Under the pieces are notes generated by a model. It saw only the letters and a program-made list of their open reading frames with translations, did not search any database and had not been told where the DNA came from. DNA of 64,000 bases, from NCBI RefSeq assembly GCF_013426895.1, contig NZ_AP023174.1:1550001-1614000 (forward strand). The letters run 5' to 3'. Shown in pieces: positions 40,681 to 47,003 of the stretch; the first letter of the stretch is position 1, and each line of letters starts with the position of its first letter. The position numbers were made by a program, and so were the translations under genes. The stretch comes from Paraburkholderia largidicola (GTDB lineage Bacteria; Pseudomonadota; Gammaproteobacteria; Burkholderiales; Burkholderiaceae).

Positions 40681-41952
40681 GTGCTTCATCAAATCATCGA
40701 CCGCAGGCTGGCAGGCAAGAACAAGAGCATTGCAAATCGCGAACGCTTTCTGCGTCGCGTGAAGGGATACATTCGGCGCGCTGTTTCGGAAGCGGTGCGC
40801 GACCGTAGCATCAAGGACATTCAAAACACCCAGAGCATCACGATTCCGCGCAAGGACATCGCTGAGCCGTCGTTCCGGCATGGTCCGGGCGGCAAGCGCG
40901 AAATGGTGCACCCGGGTAACGCGGACTATATCCGCGGCGACAAGATCCCGCGTCCGCAAGGAGGCGGCGGTAGCGGCGGCGGTGGCAGCGCCAGCAACGA
41001 AGGCGAAGGGCAGGACGATTTCGTCTTCGAACTGAGCCGCGAAGAGTTCATGCAGTACTTCTTCGACGATCTCGAACTGCCGCGTCTCGTCAAAACCCAT
41101 CTGCTTGCCGTGCCGACGTGGAAGAGCATCCGCGCGGGCTGGGCGGCGGAGGGCACGCCGAACAACATCGATGTGGTGCGTTCGCTGCGCAGCGCATTGG
41201 GCCGGCGTATCGCGCTCGGCGCGCCGCTCGTCAACGAACTGCACGAACTCGAAAAGCAGCTCGAAGAGATGAAGGCGGACCCCGCCGACCGTCGCGAAGA
41301 CATCAAGCTGCTGGAAGACGAGATCCATCATCTGCGCGGCCGCATCTGGCGCATTCCATTTATCGACCCATTCGATCTGCGTTACGTGAATCGCGTGAAG
41401 CAGCCGCAGCCGTCGAGCCAGGCCGTGATGTTTTGTCTGATGGATGTGTCGGGCTCGATGGACGAGCAGCGCAAGGATCTCGCCAAGCGCTTCTTCATCC
41501 TGCTGTATCTGTTCCTCAAGCGTAACTACGAGAAGATCGAGGTGGTGTTCATCCGCCACCATACGCGTGCCGAAGAAGTCGACGAAGACACGTTCTTCCA
41601 TTCGACGGAGAGCGGCGGCACGGTCGTGTCGAGCGCACTGGAACTGATGCAGAAGATTCTCGACGAACGCTACTCGCCGACTGAATGGAATATTTACGGC
41701 GCGCAGGCTTCGGACGGCGACAACTGGACGGACGACTCGCCGAAGTGCCGCAAGATACTCGCAGATGACATTCTCGAGAAGGTGCGGTATTTTGCGTACA
41801 TTCAGGTGACGCCTGAAGAGCAGAACCTGTGGCTCGAATATGCGCAACTCGCGCTGTCGCAGCCGCATATGGCGATGAAGAAGGTTGAGACGGCTGCGGA
41901 TATCTATCCCGTGTTCCGCGAGCTGTTTGAAAAGCAGGTGGAAGCCGCATGA
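40681..41952 (+). CDS. yeaH: YeaH (DUF444) von Willebrand-like protein
   Basis: 423 residues. The start is a GTG with GGGAG eight bases upstream. N-terminal IIDRRLAGKNKSIANRERFL matches YeaH. A glycine-rich linker (about 93-104) precedes the DUF444/VWA domain with the MIDAS-like DVSGS at 255-259. DUF444 proteins accompany PrkA and SpoVR and probably act with the kinase; the molecular role is not established. The stop overlaps an ATG of the spoVR frame as ATGA. Confidence 0.95.
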   Translation: MLHQIIDRRLAGKNKSIANRERFLRRVKGYIRRAVSEAVRDRSIKDIQNTQSITIPRKDIAEPSFRHGPGGKREMVHPGNADYIRGDKIPRPQGGGGSGGGGSASNEGEGQDDFVFELSREEFMQYFFDDLELPRLVKTHLLAVPTWKSIRAGWAAEGTPNNIDVVRSLRSALGRRIALGAPLVNELHELEKQLEEMKADPADRREDIKLLEDEIHHLRGRIWRIPFIDPFDLRYVNRVKQPQPSSQAVMFCLMDVSGSMDEQRKDLAKRFFILLYLFLKRNYEKIEVVFIRHHTRAEEVDEDTFFHSTESGGTVVSSALELMQKILDERYSPTEWNIYGAQASDGDNWTDDSPKCRKILADDILEKVRYFAYIQVTPEEQNLWLEYAQLALSQPHMAMKKVETAADIYPVFRELFEKQVEAA

Positions 41953-42161
41953 CGACTCGCCACCTGCACAACGAGGCGCGAGGGTACGAGCCCGAGCGCA
42001 AGAAAGGCGTGCCGAAGCAGAGTGAGGCCGGGCATGCCGAGGCGAACACGGCACACGCGCAGGACGCGCGTGCGCCCGATGCCGGAGCAGGCGTAGCGCC
42101 TGACGCAGCTGCAGCACGGGGACCCACCGGGGCGCCCACCAAAGGGCAAAGGGAAGTCCGT

Positions 42162-43685
42162 ATGAACGTTGCCGACAGAAGGCCGTTGCCGTGTCCGTCC
42201 GACTGGACCTTCGAGCTGATCGAAGAGTACGACACACATATTGCGCATGTTGCGGAGCAATATGAACTAGATGTCTATCCAATCCAGCTCGAGCTTATCA
42301 GCGCTGAACAGATGATGGACGCGTACGCGTCTGTCGGCATGCCGGTCAATTACCGGCACTGGTCGTTCGGCAAACACTTTCTCGCCACGGAAAAAAGCTA
42401 CAGACGCGGGCAAATGGGCCTCGCGTATGAGATCGTCATCAACTCCAACCCCTGCATCGCGTATCTGATGGAAGAGAACACGATGACGATGCAGGCGCTC
42501 GTCATCGCGCACGCGGCCTATGGCCACAACTCGTTCTTCAAGGGGAATTACCTGTTCCGCCTGTGGACGGATGCGCACGCGATCATCGATTACCTCGTCT
42601 ACGCGAAGAACTACATCGCGGAGTGCGAAGAGCGTTTTGGCCTCGACCGCGTCGAGGAACTGCTCGACTCGTGCCATGCGCTGATGAACTACGGCGTGGA
42701 TCGCTACAAGCGTCCGCAGAAGCTGTCTCTGCAGAAGGAGTTCGCGGCGCGCCGCGAGCGCGAAGCGTATCTGCAGTCGCAGGTGAATGAACTGTGGCGC
42801 ACGCTGCCGAATCGTCACACGCCTTTGCCCGAAGAAGTGGAGGAGCGTTATCCGCCGGAGCCGCAGGAGAACCTGCTGTATTTCGCGGAGAAGAACGCAC
42901 CGCTGCTCGAACCGTGGGAGCGTGAAGTCATCCGTATCGTGCGGAAGATCGGCCAGTACTTCTATCCGCAGCGTCAGACGCAGGTGATGAACGAAGGTTG
43001 GGCCACGTTCTGGCACTACACGCTGCTCAACACGATGTACAACGAGGGCAAGCTCGAAGACGGCTTCATGATGGAGTTTCTCCATTCGCACAGCAACGTC
43101 GTGTATCAGCCGCCCGTGACAAAGCCGTATTACAGCGGCATCAATCCGTATGCGCTTGGCTTTTCGATGATGAGCGACATCCGGCGCATCTGCGAGAACC
43201 CCACGGAAGAGGACCGCAAGTGGTTTCCGGATCTCGCGGGTAGTCCGTGGCTGCAGGCGCTGCATTACGCCATGCGTAACTTCAAGGACGAGAGCTTCGT
43301 CGCGCAGTATCTGTCGCCCCATCTGATCCGTGAAATGCGGCTTTTCTCGGTGCTCGACGATGATATGCGCGATGCGCTCGAAGTTTCCGCGATTCACGAT
43401 GACAGTGGCTATCGGTATGTGCGGCAGGCATTGTCGCGGCAGTACGATATGCATCATCGCGAGCCGAATATTCAGGTGTATTCGGTCAATACGCGCGGTG
43501 ACCGCAGTCTCACATTGCGCCATTTCATGAGCGATAACCGGCACCTTTCCGGGGATAGCGATGAAGTGCTCAAGCACATGGCCAGGTTGTGGCAGTTTGA
43601 TGTGTATCTCGAGAGCGTCGATGAAAATGGTACGGTGAGGAAACGCTACGAGTGTCGATATACGGCACCTGCGGTGCGGGTTTAG
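42162..43685 (+). CDS. spoVR: SpoVR family protein (YcgB-like)
   Basis: 507 residues from the ATG at 42162, which has AAGGGAAG upstream and matches the length and N-terminus of YcgB (about 510). Conserved blocks include SAEQMMDAYASVGMPVNYRH, NSNPCIAYLMEENTMTMQAL and VMNEGWATFWHY with HSHSNVV, a possible metal site. The same frame is open to an ATG at 41949 that overlaps the yeaH stop and would add 71 Ala/Gly/Glu-rich residues. The extension has partly host-like codons, so coupled translation from 41949 is possible. Role in stress or stationary phase is inferred. Confidence 0.92.
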   Translation: MNVADRRPLPCPSDWTFELIEEYDTHIAHVAEQYELDVYPIQLELISAEQMMDAYASVGMPVNYRHWSFGKHFLATEKSYRRGQMGLAYEIVINSNPCIAYLMEENTMTMQALVIAHAAYGHNSFFKGNYLFRLWTDAHAIIDYLVYAKNYIAECEERFGLDRVEELLDSCHALMNYGVDRYKRPQKLSLQKEFAARREREAYLQSQVNELWRTLPNRHTPLPEEVEERYPPEPQENLLYFAEKNAPLLEPWEREVIRIVRKIGQYFYPQRQTQVMNEGWATFWHYTLLNTMYNEGKLEDGFMMEFLHSHSNVVYQPPVTKPYYSGINPYALGFSMMSDIRRICENPTEEDRKWFPDLAGSPWLQALHYAMRNFKDESFVAQYLSPHLIREMRLFSVLDDDMRDALEVSAIHDDSGYRYVRQALSRQYDMHHREPNIQVYSVNTRGDRSLTLRHFMSDNRHLSGDSDEVLKHMARLWQFDVYLESVDENGTVRKRYECRYTAPAVRV

Positions 43686-43766
43686 TCCGGTTTTTTCTTT
43701 TCTTTACTGGCTTTGTGGCTCTGCCGGCTTGCTTTTGTTTTTGCTGGCATCCGCGATTTGTTATTG

Positions 43767-44376
43767 GTGCTTCAAGCGTCGCCCCTGTGCGGGGCGGCAC
43801 CTACTTTTCTTTGCCGCCGCAAAGAAAAGTAGGCAAAAGAAAGCGGCTCACACCACCAATCCTTGTTACTGCCTGAGGGCCCCCACAGGTTCTTACACTT
43901 CAAACGGTAACCACGTGACCCACGTTCGTTGCCAGCGCTCTCGCAGTGCGCCTCACCTGCATCTGCTCCCGCATTCCAGCATGCCGCGCCAGACCTTCCA
44001 CGGCCGCCCAGGCGGCAAACTGTGTGTCGGCCGTAGTGCATCACACGCCTCACTCCGGACCGATAGCGCACGCGTTCCACCCTGCAAGAGCGCTACCCTT
44101 AACGACGCGACAACCTACACACAGTTTGCCACCTGGGCGGCACATACCGTTCGCTGCCGTAGGCCCAGGTACGGGTATGCGAGGCGGGTGAGGCGTTCAT
44201 TCGAAGCGTTGGCAACGGGCAATGAACAACGCGTTATCGTGTGACGTGTGGGGACGTTGGGGGCCCGTGGATGAGAACACGGGCTGGCGGTGTGAGCCGC
44301 TTTCTTTTGCCTACTTTTCTTTGCGGCGGCAAAGAAAAGTAGGTGCCGCCCCGCACAGGGGCGACGCTTGAAGCAC
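43767..44376. repeat. 610-bp nested palindromic element
   Basis: Outer arms 43767-43854 and 44289-44376 are perfect 88-bp inverted repeats. Inner pairs share the same centre near 44072: GGGCCCCCA (43877-43885 / 44258-44266), 13 bp with one mismatch (43927-43939 / 44205-44217), and 25 bp with one mismatch (44003-44027 / 44117-44141). Each outer arm also holds a perfect 14-bp hairpin (43801-43832; 44311-44342) and a CGCCCC/GGGGCG hairpin. It looks like two head-to-head copies of one repeat of about 305 bp. No transposase and no credible gene inside. It fills most of the 952-base gap between spoVR and kgtP. Confidence 0.93.
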
Positions 44377-44410
44377 GAAAACAAAACGCGGATGCCAACG
44401 AAATCCCGAG

Positions 44411-44444
44411 CAAACCAAACCAAAACCAAAAACCAAACCAAACC
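44411..44444. repeat. CCAAA-type low-complexity tract
   Basis: Irregular run of CAAAC/CCAAA words just outside the right end of the palindrome and about 190 bases before kgtP. T-rich DNA lies beyond the left end (43691-43706), giving a weak mirror of the tract. The kgtP promoter should lie between here and 44637. Confidence 0.7.
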
Positions 44445-44637
44445 GCATCCACATGCGGCCCGCTCCTGATATCCGTTAAGATACCGACCGCGCCCAACCT
44501 TACATATCTATACAATCTCGCAGGCGCGCTGCAACCCACTTGCAACCAGCCCGAAACCTGTCTGCAATTCCGGCGGCAGCAATAGAAAGCACAAAGCGGC
44601 GTCGACCGCTAAAAACCTTCAGAAGGGACCGACCAGC

Positions 44638-45933
44638 ATGACCGACACGACCATCTTCACTCCCTCCGACACCCGGCGCCGCATCTTCGCGATCGTCGGC
44701 GCTTCGTCGGGCAATCTCGTCGAGTGGTTCGATTTCTACGTCTACTCGTTTTGCGCGCTGTACTTCGCGCCGGCGTTCTTTCCGAAAGGCGATACCACAG
44801 CGCAACTGCTGAATACAGCAGGCGTGTTCGCCGCGGGCTTCCTGATGCGCCCGATCGGCGGCTGGTTCTTCGGACGCCTCGCCGACAAACGCGGGCGCCG
44901 CTTCGCGATGATGGTGTCGGTGTTCATGATGTGCGGCGGCTCGCTCGTGATCGCCATGCTGCCGACCTATGCACAGATCGGCGCGCTCGCTCCCGCGTTG
45001 CTGCTTGTTGCGCGCCTGTTCCAGGGTTTGTCGGTGGGCGGCGAGTACGGCACCAGCGCAACCTACATGAGTGAAGTCGCCCTGAAGGGCCGCCGCGGTT
45101 TCTTCGCGTCGTTCCAGTACGTGACGCTGATCGGTGGCCAGCTGTTCGCGCTTCTGGTGCTCGTGATCCTGCAGCAACTGCTGACGACGGAAGAACTGAA
45201 GGCCTGGGGCTGGCGCGTTCCGTTCGTGGTCGGTGCGCTTGCCGCGCTGGTCGCGCTGTACCTGCGCCGCTCGCTCGATGAAACAACCACGGCCGAGACG
45301 CGTCAGCGCAAGGAAGCGGGCACGCTGCGCGGCATGTGGCAGCACAAGGGCGCGTTCTTCACGGTGCTCGGCTTCACGGCAGGCGGCTCGCTGATTTTCT
45401 ACACGTTCACGACCTACATGCAGAAGTACCTCGTCAACACGGCAGGCATGCATGCCAAGACAGCCAGCAACGTGATGACGGCGGCGCTCTTCGTGTACAT
45501 GATCATGCAGCCTGCGTTCGGCGCGCTGTCGGATCGCATCGGCCGCCGTCAGTCGATGCTGCTGTTCGGCTTCTTTGCGACGATCGGCACGGTGCCGTTG
45601 CTGCACGCACTGAAGGACGTGACAAGCCCTGTGATGGCGTTCGTGCTGGTGGTGATCGCGCTGGCCATCGTGAGTTTCTATACGTCGATCAGCGGCCTCA
45701 TCAAGGCCGAGATGTTCCCGCCGGAAGTGCGCGCGCTCGGCGTCGGCCTGTCGTATGCCGTTGCCAATGCAATCTTCGGCGGCTCGGCGGAATACGTCGC
45801 GCTGTGGCTCAAGCAGGCGGGCAGCGAATCGATGTTCTACTGGTACGTGACCGTGCTGTGCGCGATTGCCGGCCTCGTGTCGTTCCGTATGCGCGATCCG
45901 TCGAAGGTAGGCTACCTGCGTAACGAGCCGTGA
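44638..45933 (+). CDS. kgtP: Alpha-ketoglutarate permease (MHS family MFS)
   Basis: 431 residues with twelve predicted transmembrane segments. It matches E. coli KgtP closely in remembered blocks: [40 protein letters not shown] (MFS motif A) and [20 protein letters not shown]. Imports 2-oxoglutarate with protons. GAAGGGACC precedes the ATG at 44638. A bidirectional terminator follows. It is a single-gene unit bordered on the left by the palindromic element. Confidence 0.93.
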
Positions 45934-45967
45934 TGCGTCCGGCTTTGCAACGCCAACGCTGAAACGC

Positions 45968-45998
45968 AAAAAGCGGCTCTTTCAAAGAGCCGCTTTTT
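45968..45998. terminator. Bidirectional terminator
   Basis: Stem AAAAAGCGGCTCTTT / AAAGAGCCGCTTTTT, 15 bp and perfect around one base (in practice a 9-bp stem with a 7-base loop), with T-runs on both strands. It serves kgtP and the convergent glycosyltransferase gene. Confidence 0.93.
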
Positions 45999-46025
45999 AA
46001 TTCTGCGCGATGTCGGGAAAGGTAC

Positions 46026-47003
46026 TCAAGGAAAGCGCGGCGCCGAAGGCGGCAGCCCACGCCACTTCATGGTGATGAACGCGCGCGCGATCAGCGACAG
46101 GTGATAGTAGAAGCGTGCGTCGAAACCGTAGGCGTACGCATACGGATGCTCGAAGGCCACACGTAGCGCCGCAAGCGGTGCATCGTTCTTCGCGTACAAC
46201 GACACGACGATAGGCGCGAGCCTTCGCAACGCGAGACGCCGGGCAGGTTCGAGCGATGCGTCGAGTTCGAGTGCCGTCACGAACTCGAAGGCCGTCAGCG
46301 AAGCCGCGAAAGTCGAGCCGCGCGTGCTGTGCGAAATCGACACATCGGTCTTGCGGTAGTACGACACATAGCGATGCAGGTAATACACCTGCGAAGCGGC
46401 CAGGCACAACTCCGAGCCGAACACGTAATCGCAGCACATGCCGACATCGTCGCGATAGCTGATCCGTTTGACGAGATCCGCGTTCGCCATCCAGCCGTTG
46501 TTCGGGAACATCTGCACGAGACCCGTGCGCCCCGGCTGCTTCTGCAAGCCTTGCGCGAGCGCGGTGCGATGGAAGTCGGCGTTCAGCTCCGCGCTTTTCG
46601 ACGTATCGACGTTGCCTTGCGCATCCACTTCATACTGGTCTGCGAATGCGACTTCGAGTTGCGGATGCTGCTGCCATAGTTCCAGCAAACTCGCGATGCC
46701 GTCGTTGGCGAAGTAGTCGTCGTCGTGAATCAATGCGATCTTGTCGCCGCTCGCGCGCGCAAAAAGGCTCGCAACGTTGCGCGCCTGGCCGAGCGATGGC
46801 TCGTTCTTCACATAGCGCACGCGCGCGTCGTGCGCATAGCGCGTTTCGATCAGCGCTTGCGTACGGCTGTCGCTCGAATCGTCGCCGATCAGGATTTCGA
46901 TGTTGGTATGTGTCTGAGCCAGACACGAGTCCAGACATTCGACGATCAGCTCAGGCCGATTGCATGTCGGGACGCAAATGGAAACCTTGCAGGATGTCGT
47001 CAT
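46026..47003 (-). CDS. Family 2 glycosyltransferase
   Basis: 325 residues. GT-A fold: N-terminal KVSICVPTCNRPELIVECLD, then IEILIGDDSSDSRTQ and the DXD-type metal site in ALIHDDDYFAND. The C-terminal half is helical with aromatic clusters and no transmembrane anchor, so it is probably cytoplasmic and adds a sugar to a glycan or surface polymer. It is isolated, without other polysaccharide genes, so the acceptor is unknown. Start ATG at 47003. Confidence 0.9.
   Translation of the reverse strand: MTTSCKVSICVPTCNRPELIVECLDSCLAQTHTNIEILIGDDSSDSRTQALIETRYAHDARVRYVKNEPSLGQARNVASLFARASGDKIALIHDDDYFANDGIASLLELWQQHPQLEVAFADQYEVDAQGNVDTSKSAELNADFHRTALAQGLQKQPGRTGLVQMFPNNGWMANADLVKRISYRDDVGMCCDYVFGSELCLAASQVYYLHRYVSYYRKTDVSISHSTRGSTFAASLTAFEFVTALELDASLEPARRLALRRLAPIVVSLYAKNDAPLAALRVAFEHPYAYAYGFDARFYYHLSLIARAFITMKWRGLPPSAPRFP

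Follow-up and report, generated by a model that had tools for sequence, protein, structure and literature searches.

A long REPIN-like palindromic repeat behind spoVR in Paraburkholderia largidicola and its predicted role as a two-way terminator

The palindrome behind spoVR

In the 64-kb stretch of the P. largidicola genome analysed here (the window), a gene of the SpoVR family ends about 90 bp before the left REP-like unit of a long nested palindrome, and a transporter gene follows on the same strand. The features of the locus, with the evidence for each in brackets, are listed below; inner inverted runs were counted if they were at least 7 bp long and lay on the same or an adjacent half-base centre.

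41949..43685, plus strand: upstream gene, SpoVR family (Pfam PF04293, 586.6 bits)
43741..44404, no strand: whole element (alignment of 43 host copies; end-to-end fold)
43767..43854, no strand: left perfect arm, 88 bp (inverted-repeat search)
43776..43804, minus strand: REP-like unit of the left tip, GTAG inward and hairpin outward (0 mismatches to the tip pattern)
43778..43798, plus strand: terminator-like hairpin followed by ACCTACTTTT, met by spoVR transcripts (terminator scan)
43800..43833, no strand: left inner hairpin, CCTACTTTTCTTTGC...GCAAAGAAAAGTAGG (inverted-repeat search)
43877-43885/44258-44266: inner inverted run, 9 bp
43927-43934/44210-44217: inner inverted run, 8 bp
43949-43957/44187-44195: inner inverted run, 9 bp
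44003-44012 + 44014-44027 / 44117-44130 + 44132-44141: inner runs of 10 and 14 bp with one mismatch between them
44003..44030, no strand: central inverted pair, left half (pair 93% over 28 nt)
44114..44141, no strand: central inverted pair, right half (pair 93% over 28 nt)
44289..44376, no strand: right perfect arm, 88 bp (inverted-repeat search)
44310..44343, no strand: right inner hairpin (94% direct repeat of the left inner hairpin)
44339..44367, plus strand: REP-like unit of the right tip, GTAG inward (tip-pattern match)
44345..44365, minus strand: mirror-image terminator-like hairpin with ACCTACTTTT behind it, read by transcripts that enter from the right (terminator scan)
44638..45933, plus strand: downstream gene, MFS transporter (Pfam PF00083 and PF07690)

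The Pfam matches agree with the first-pass annotation of the downstream gene as far as the MFS/sugar transporter family is concerned; the name kgtP is that annotation's own.

The perfect arms share a symmetry centre at 44071.5. Complementarity extends past them (43757-43867/44276-44386, 93% over 111 nt), and a weaker outer pair lies at 43726-43762/44380-44416 (78% complementary). The whole 64-kb window has 76 inverted 16-mer pairs whose members are under 900 bp apart, and all but three of them (73) start at the palindrome. Folded as RNA, the segment 43741-44404 closes end to end with a minimum free energy (MFE) of -441.9 kcal/mol, compared with -251.5 +/- 6.9 in 20 dinucleotide shuffles (z about -27), and the other strand folded as DNA gives -259.8 against -132.6 +/- 4.7 in its shuffles. 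The first-pass annotation had described one symmetric element, nested about a single centre and beyond chance, and these results bear it out in each respect. Of the four inverted pairs it reported (88, 25, 13 and 9 bp), those of 88 and 9 bp were recovered, that of 25 bp corresponds to the 10 and 14 bp runs with their one mismatch, and a separate 13-bp pair was not found. Its limits, 43767-44376, prove too narrow, the conserved unit being about 43741-44404. In the alignment of 43 host copies the unit is about 665 bp long and its edges fade, T/G-rich on the left and A/C-rich on the right.

From each tip inward there follow a REP-like unit GTAGGTGCCGCCCCGCACAGGGGCRACGC, in which GTAG stands beside an imperfect palindrome, a 34-nt hairpin, and a conserved asymmetric interior that holds the central inverted pair. 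The tips are inverted and about 565 bp apart, and minus/plus tip pairs recur at near constant spacing in the host genome; some host copies (e.g., L023 and L027) carry additional tip REPs in tandem, about 102 bp apart. An earlier proposal that the palindrome consists of two head-to-head copies of a 305-bp repeat does not fit, and the replicating unit is the whole element, because the halves are only about 72% alike and the interior asymmetry is conserved in 43 copies. No lone 305-bp half was seen among the 48 host loci inspected, a set picked mostly by full-length match and thus under-sampling halves. The two inner hairpins are 94% direct repeats 510 bp apart, and recombination between them would therefore yield an interior-less unit of tip, hairpin and tip such as L196. 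This unit, at 183-1537 of its locus in genome G291, consists of two tips around a single hairpin, and nothing in it matches the interior; without its IS481-type insertion it would measure about 75 bp, the size of an ordinary REPIN (one case), which makes it a relative of the giant element on the scale of a REPIN.

Between stop codon and element, the motif GTCTGCGACGC (up to 2 substitutions) occurs at 25 of 54 element-facing gene ends, mostly after a T-run, while the outer motif TTTTGTCTGCGACGCTGG has 60+72 matches in the host genome (up to 2 mismatches). Together they may mark the true outer end in less decayed copies. The same stretch in the 54 gene ends is strikingly T/G-rich on the coding strand, and short repeats such as GGGTTT or TTTGC are frequent in it.

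The five spurious open reading frames read from the element have no Pfam match up to E = 1, and no transposase was found inside, as had been stated before. An assembly artefact, a possibility raised by the first-pass annotation, is unlikely because about 178 copies lie at different sites of the same assembly and because three other assemblies have a copy at the same site, with a fourth partly aligned.

Copies, range and conservation of form

Among 225 candidates in the host genome the best 40 were scored, and all 40 are near full length, one of them being the query. The others are 86-92% identical, lie on three contigs in both orientations, and, like the query, each also matches the reversed query at 69-74%. 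The tip pattern has 195+187 matches in the host genome (up to 3 mismatches), a shorter tip pattern 193+183 and the arm pattern 180+176, while reversed control patterns have 0. Among the first 100 places listed for the tip pattern the strands are, by eye, unevenly represented, so that only totals and pairs were used. With 376-382 tip matches, the suspicion of many dispersed copies is confirmed, and the approximately 178 elements, at 665 bp each, make up about 1.2% of the 9.47-Mb genome. Because there is no transposase match inside, many copies are dispersed, and relatives lack the element at the site, the element is non-autonomous. The best reading places it in a large population of outsized REP/REPIN-type palindromes within this genome, a kind of repeat that is abundant in the genomes of some soil bacteria.

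The arm pattern was found in 105 of 144 genomes of the genus, the host included, with more than 200 matches in eight of them; within an order-wide sample of 200 genomes it occurs in the host alone. The tip pattern is present in 39 of 249 genomes of the family, distributed over 3 of 25 genera, which agrees with the occurrence in Burkholderiaceae suggested by the first-pass annotation. Twenty annotated plasmid or chromid records match (Paraburkholderia 10, Burkholderia 7, Caballeronia 3), those from Burkholderia covering only about 12% of the query. One host locus has 99.8% identity in Paraburkholderia sp. 22B1P, to which the host is close, and about 98% in P. largidicola. A comparison of 197 kb between two chromids of near relatives, which hold just 2 and 3 elements in that stretch, revealed no pair of empty and filled sites, and none of the insertions seen was both recent and cleanly bounded. 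A search of open-access papers brought up no description of the element among the entries listed, and none contains the repeat's own letters. The word Burkholderia is absent from the main texts of PMC3733652, PMC2267715, PMC6006769, PMC2817692, PMC1525189 and PMC12306157. REPIN, RAYT and Burkholderia occur together in PMC3390384.

For comparison across species, 32 elements of 442-726 bp were taken from 14 genomes and trimmed by 100 nt at each end; L117, L129, L130 and L132, which have no tip pair, were left out. In 31 of the 32, the interior matches its own reverse complement better than all 20 of its own shuffles. The single failure is L126, whose limits had been misplaced onto an outer tandem REP; its 571-bp unit has a whole-length self-complementarity of 0.74. 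Between species, interior similarity ranges from clearly related (host vs G019, 0.66) down to chance level (host vs G247, 0.41-0.42, with lengths differing). In 14 elements of the host type, 61 interior pairs are paired in 90.9% of cells, compared with a maximum of 88.9% in 300 shuffles. There are 45 compensatory cells (maximum 34 in the 300 shuffles, 3-15 in slid controls) in 21 pairs (maximum 19 in the shuffles), although the interior structure was derived from the same rows, which biases the test in the structure's favour.

Arm-to-arm compensation within the host genome is mixed and at most weak. In the 43 copies there are 123 compensatory cells against 45-79 in slid controls, but pairs with a compensatory cell number 36 against 28-36, and doubly changed complementary cells 52 against 16-53. 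Almost half of those 36 pairs (17) are found left of 43781, at the outer edge. Ongoing intramolecular correction of one arm by the other in the interior was considered and rejected, the mirrored copy-specific changes in the 43 copies being mixed or weak and largely confined to the outer edge. Pairing is thus renewed or selected on the time scale of species, and at most weakly from one copy to the next, and we infer selection on the palindromic form. At the spoVR site, the interior of the host copy is about 82% identical to its orthologues in G254 and G313 and to the aligned part of that in G335; its identity to 42 host paralogues has a median of 83.9% (best 89.5%), and the flanking genes are 90-96% identical to their orthologues. 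Because the spoVR-site copy is no closer to orthologues than to paralogues, the copies behave as a population.

Gene ends and terminators

Forty-two of the 48 host loci could be classified with a home-made gene caller; the loci are a non-random set of the 40 best matches and 8 others. The copies lie between convergent genes in 23 cases, tandem genes in 18 and divergent genes in 1, whereas the 48 neighbouring gene pairs of the window include 8 convergent, 32 tandem and 8 divergent (5, 27 and 8 when gaps are at least 50 bp). The convergent excess has a Fisher p of 0.0003 against all pairs and 0.00006 against pairs with gaps of at least 50 bp; the corresponding values for the divergent class are 0.03 and 0.01. 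One annotated P. largidicola copy also lies between two convergent genes. The distance from stop codon to REP tip has a median of 106.5 nt over 54 gene ends. Only ends within 250 nt of the tip belong to this set, and L079, L080 and the four copies that bear an IS are left out of it. In this sample, then, the element settles just behind stop codons, preferably between convergent genes. The main pattern, i.e., this position together with a missing native terminator, had escaped the first-pass annotation.

At the spoVR site the element is present in G254, G313 and G314, and partly aligned in G335. It is absent from G004, G019, G020 and G291, in which about 125-175 bp of intergenic sequence separates the gene from the next anchor and a GC-rich hairpin with a T-run follows spoVR. 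Counting one row per genome, and bearing in mind that orthologous rows are related and not independent, 13 of 14 element-free rows have a scored intrinsic terminator at the spoVR end, and none of the 7 rows with a palindromic element has one outside the element. In 4 of these 7 a terminator-like match occurs within the first 130 nt after the stop, inside the element, and in the remaining 3 there is none within 130 nt; two of these three, G254 and G313, have the tip hairpin about 115 nt past the stop, with the T-tract beyond the 130-nt limit. The seven element-bearing rows comprise one clade (host, G254, G313 and G314), G002 and G034 with another inner hairpin or outer arm, and G262 with other outer arms. 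Because different palindromic elements stand at the spoVR end in different lineages, replacement of a terminator probably happened there more than once. Other classes of long palindrome (L045, L049, L166, L199 and L200), in which hairpins or outer arms differ and the overall design is the same, were observed at the same gene ends in G002, G034, G262 and G241.

The second site, L009, lies between convergent genes. A terminator was scored in 7 of its 11 element-free rows, in 6 of them readable in both directions, and none was scored in the other 4; the host allele, which carries the element, is the single element-bearing row. At the L008 site all 4 scorable rows carry a palindrome. Rows were skipped if the gene match ended more than 25 nt before the stop codon or the gap was shorter than 40 nt, which removed L201 and L202 (a terminator-like hairpin by eye) and several filled rows of the L008 site; the L042 row was too short to score. 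Comparison thus shows the element in the place of the native intrinsic terminator, from several lineages at the spoVR site and from a single element-bearing row at the L009 site. The case for replacement rests on these orthologous sites because the scorer shows no difference within the host genome: a strong terminator was called at 3 of 38 ordinary ends in the window and at 3 of 54 element-facing flanks, so that no loss of native terminators was detected by it. A looser scorer, which flagged 43 of the 54 element-facing flanks, was rejected as noise. The three element-facing ends that keep a strong native-looking terminator are L032, L065 and L082; by eye, one can also be made out at L020. An ordinary two-way terminator (AAGCGGCTCTTTGAAAGAGCCGCTTTTT) lies at 45933-46026, between the genes of the convergent pair that comes next in the window, and offers a natural comparison for the element.

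The arms themselves carry terminator-like signals. In each arm the incoming transcript reads the tip REP hairpin followed by ACCTACTTTTCTTT, and the scan found this on both strands; 8 terminator-like sites were counted in 1.5 kb, compared with 1.9 in shuffles. A GC-rich hairpin closely followed by a T-tract, as in intrinsic terminators, is present on both strands of the spoVR-site copy (L033), although the bases that separate the two (ACC UAC) make the spacing less than ideal. A polymerase arriving from either side would transcribe the tip REP hairpin, then the CCUACUUUUCUUU tract, and stop. The element would thereby act as a two-way terminator or insulator, which we consider its likeliest role because arm hairpins, position and replacement come together; the roles first suggested, a non-autonomous repeat and an insulator, were fair guesses. 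Termination alone leaves a 600-bp palindrome unexplained. The palindromic form would be accounted for if spreading passed through single-stranded DNA, a route that PMC3116915 suggests for REPINs. The long self-complementary form would serve spreading via single-stranded DNA, protection of RNA 3' ends, or both, and spread would follow a REPIN-like single-strand route driven by some enzyme. Taken as a whole, the reading we put slightly above even is that of an outsized, non-autonomous REPIN-like repeat which inserts at the 3' ends of genes and there stops transcription from both sides.

A possible but doubtful alternative is that of a purely selfish REPIN-like repeat without a role, found at gene 3' ends since insertions elsewhere were purged, with native terminators having decayed later. 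It is in keeping with the population behaviour of the copies, including the spoVR-site copy that resembles orthologues no more than paralogues, with the at most weak maintenance of arm pairing within the host genome, and with REPs in general, which according to sections of PMC3733652 lie downstream of genes, between convergent or unidirectional ORFs. However, losing a terminator with nothing to take its place should do harm where genes converge, both arms bear terminator-like signals, and separate lineages have different palindromic elements at the same gene end.

Less probable, and in our view improbable, is a source or processing site of structured RNA, in which the very long duplex made by read-through would serve RNase III or another nuclease in defining the 3' ends of mRNAs or in reducing read-through between convergent genes. 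The MFE of the fold, the compensated changes across species and the location of copies where convergent transcripts meet are in its favour, but the Rfam scan of the 64-kb window returned no family at its threshold and the promoter scan of 43300-44800 no promoter-like site.

Mobility and relation to known repeats

Two RAYT-like genes were found in the host genome by Y1_Tnp profile match:

L017, 1465-2172, minus strand: RAYT-like gene
L018, 1399-2115, minus strand: RAYT-like gene

Their products (235 and 238 aa) score 53.4 and 44.6 bits against NF047646/PF01797, for which the cut-off is 80, and no REP-like tip occurs in the surrounding loci (up to 6 mismatches). At least one Y1_Tnp match is present in 39 of 39 genus genomes searched, and since these include genomes without the arm pattern (e.g., G008, G010, G023, G032 and G033), the presence of a RAYT-like protein does not follow the element. 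The HUH motif of canonical RAYTs reads NHVH and is accompanied by a tyrosine motif. Of 7997 candidate homologues of the two proteins 7688 were scored; among the 120 best, NHVH stands at the HUH place in 0 of 36 parsable sequences, which mostly have GAVQL, GAVHL or SAVQL, some keeping the second histidine, and a tyrosine in the six residues before PVR in 0 of 102 parsable ones. Conservation of a histidine-hydrophobic-histidine motif and a catalytic tyrosine in RAYTs is described in parts of PMC2817692. The two host proteins are thus distant relatives of RAYT/TnpA-REP (NF047646, PF01797) that differ in that the HUH and tyrosine motifs are not seen. They may bind, but should not cut, because these motifs deviate from those expected, and they have possibly been tamed for another role. 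No active mobiliser was found.

Transposase genes are present in four host copies (L013-L016). They represent three types of IS (IS481; rve with HTH_38; Mutator) and interrupt the element at three different points; they were considered as autonomous partners and rejected as passengers, given the three types and the different insertion points. In L013 (1196-2335) and L014 (752-1891) the right inner hairpin has its loop occupied by an IS481-type element that encodes a transposase of 379 aa; these two are 99% identical, and an insertion with the same terminal letters lies in the hairpin loop of L196 at 222-1498 in G291, which suggests that IS481-type insertions may target the hairpin loop. In L015 (670-1686) an rve/HTH_38 transposase gene, IS30-like by appearance, lies at the edge of the left inner hairpin, and in L016 (883-2160) one of the Mutator type lies in the central part. 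Passages of PMC1525189 name several IS families known to target REPs. A MITE, left by deletion within a classical DDE insertion sequence and mobilised in trans by the parent IS, is very improbable: the inverted ends, the recurrence of TTTTGTCTGCGACGCTGG and the element-borne transposase genes of the four inspected copies would suit it, but transposase genes of three IS types at three points are what passengers would show, the fading edges revealed neither a target duplication nor a sharp end, and no IS sharing the outer ends was seen among the inspected copies.

The closest known systems include REPINs, REP doublets that form hairpins as set out in portions of Bertels and Rainey 2011 (PMC3116915). 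As in the REPINs described there, two inverted REPs and a spacer fold into one hairpin as the replicating unit and occur in many copies; also shared are extra REPs in tandem, an extragenic location, and ISs that target REPs. Size differs: doublets of group GI have 71 bp between 16-mer starts (same portions of PMC3116915), whereas the tips of the element are about 565 bp apart, and its units of 442-726 bp stand against REPIN units of about 100 bp with a short spacer, the one exception being the G291 unit without interior. Unlike a REPIN spacer, that of the element is itself a nested palindrome, with a sequence that varies from species to species. REPINs are accompanied by a RAYT; for the element none with an intact active site was found, and in place of a cognate RAYT beside the REPs the host has two weak Y1_Tnp proteins with no tip in their loci.

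GTAG-REPs and BIMEs, as presented in parts of Di Nocera 2013 (PMC3733652) and Nunvar 2010 (PMC2817692), likewise have GTAG next to an imperfect hairpin, reach high copy number, and lie behind genes, between convergent or same-direction ORFs, and the element shares with them GTAG beside an imperfect palindrome and a high-copy, intergenic location behind genes. Single REPs measure 20-40 bp in those parts of PMC3733652 and PMC2817692, while the element is more than 10 times longer and of near constant length in the host genome. A further parallel is found in repeats with another function. In Neisseria and Haemophilus, uptake signals are dispersed short repeats which form an intrinsic terminator when inverted. 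They are short, and no uptake role is suggested for the element. Such uptake-signal terminators are dealt with in parts of PMC1852404.

A more far-reaching proposal, which we advance tentatively and hold to be rather unlikely, is a mobile terminator system in which giant palindromes would have swept gene ends and repeatedly displaced native terminators. The palindromes would be interchangeable two-way terminators inherited and selected for form and not for sequence, so that species could come to have unrelated interiors under a lasting palindromic form, and their spread would depend on an undescribed enzyme or on a catalytically altered RAYT relative as binding partner.

The arms of the element are read as spurious short ORFs and can litter annotations. 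Short bacterial repeats that a tame transposase maintains are usually exemplified by REPINs; the element is several times longer, has about 178 copies and no evident transposase, and conserves its shape while its sequence is free. If native terminators have truly been replaced, a population of repeats would have taken over part of the transcription punctuation of this genome.
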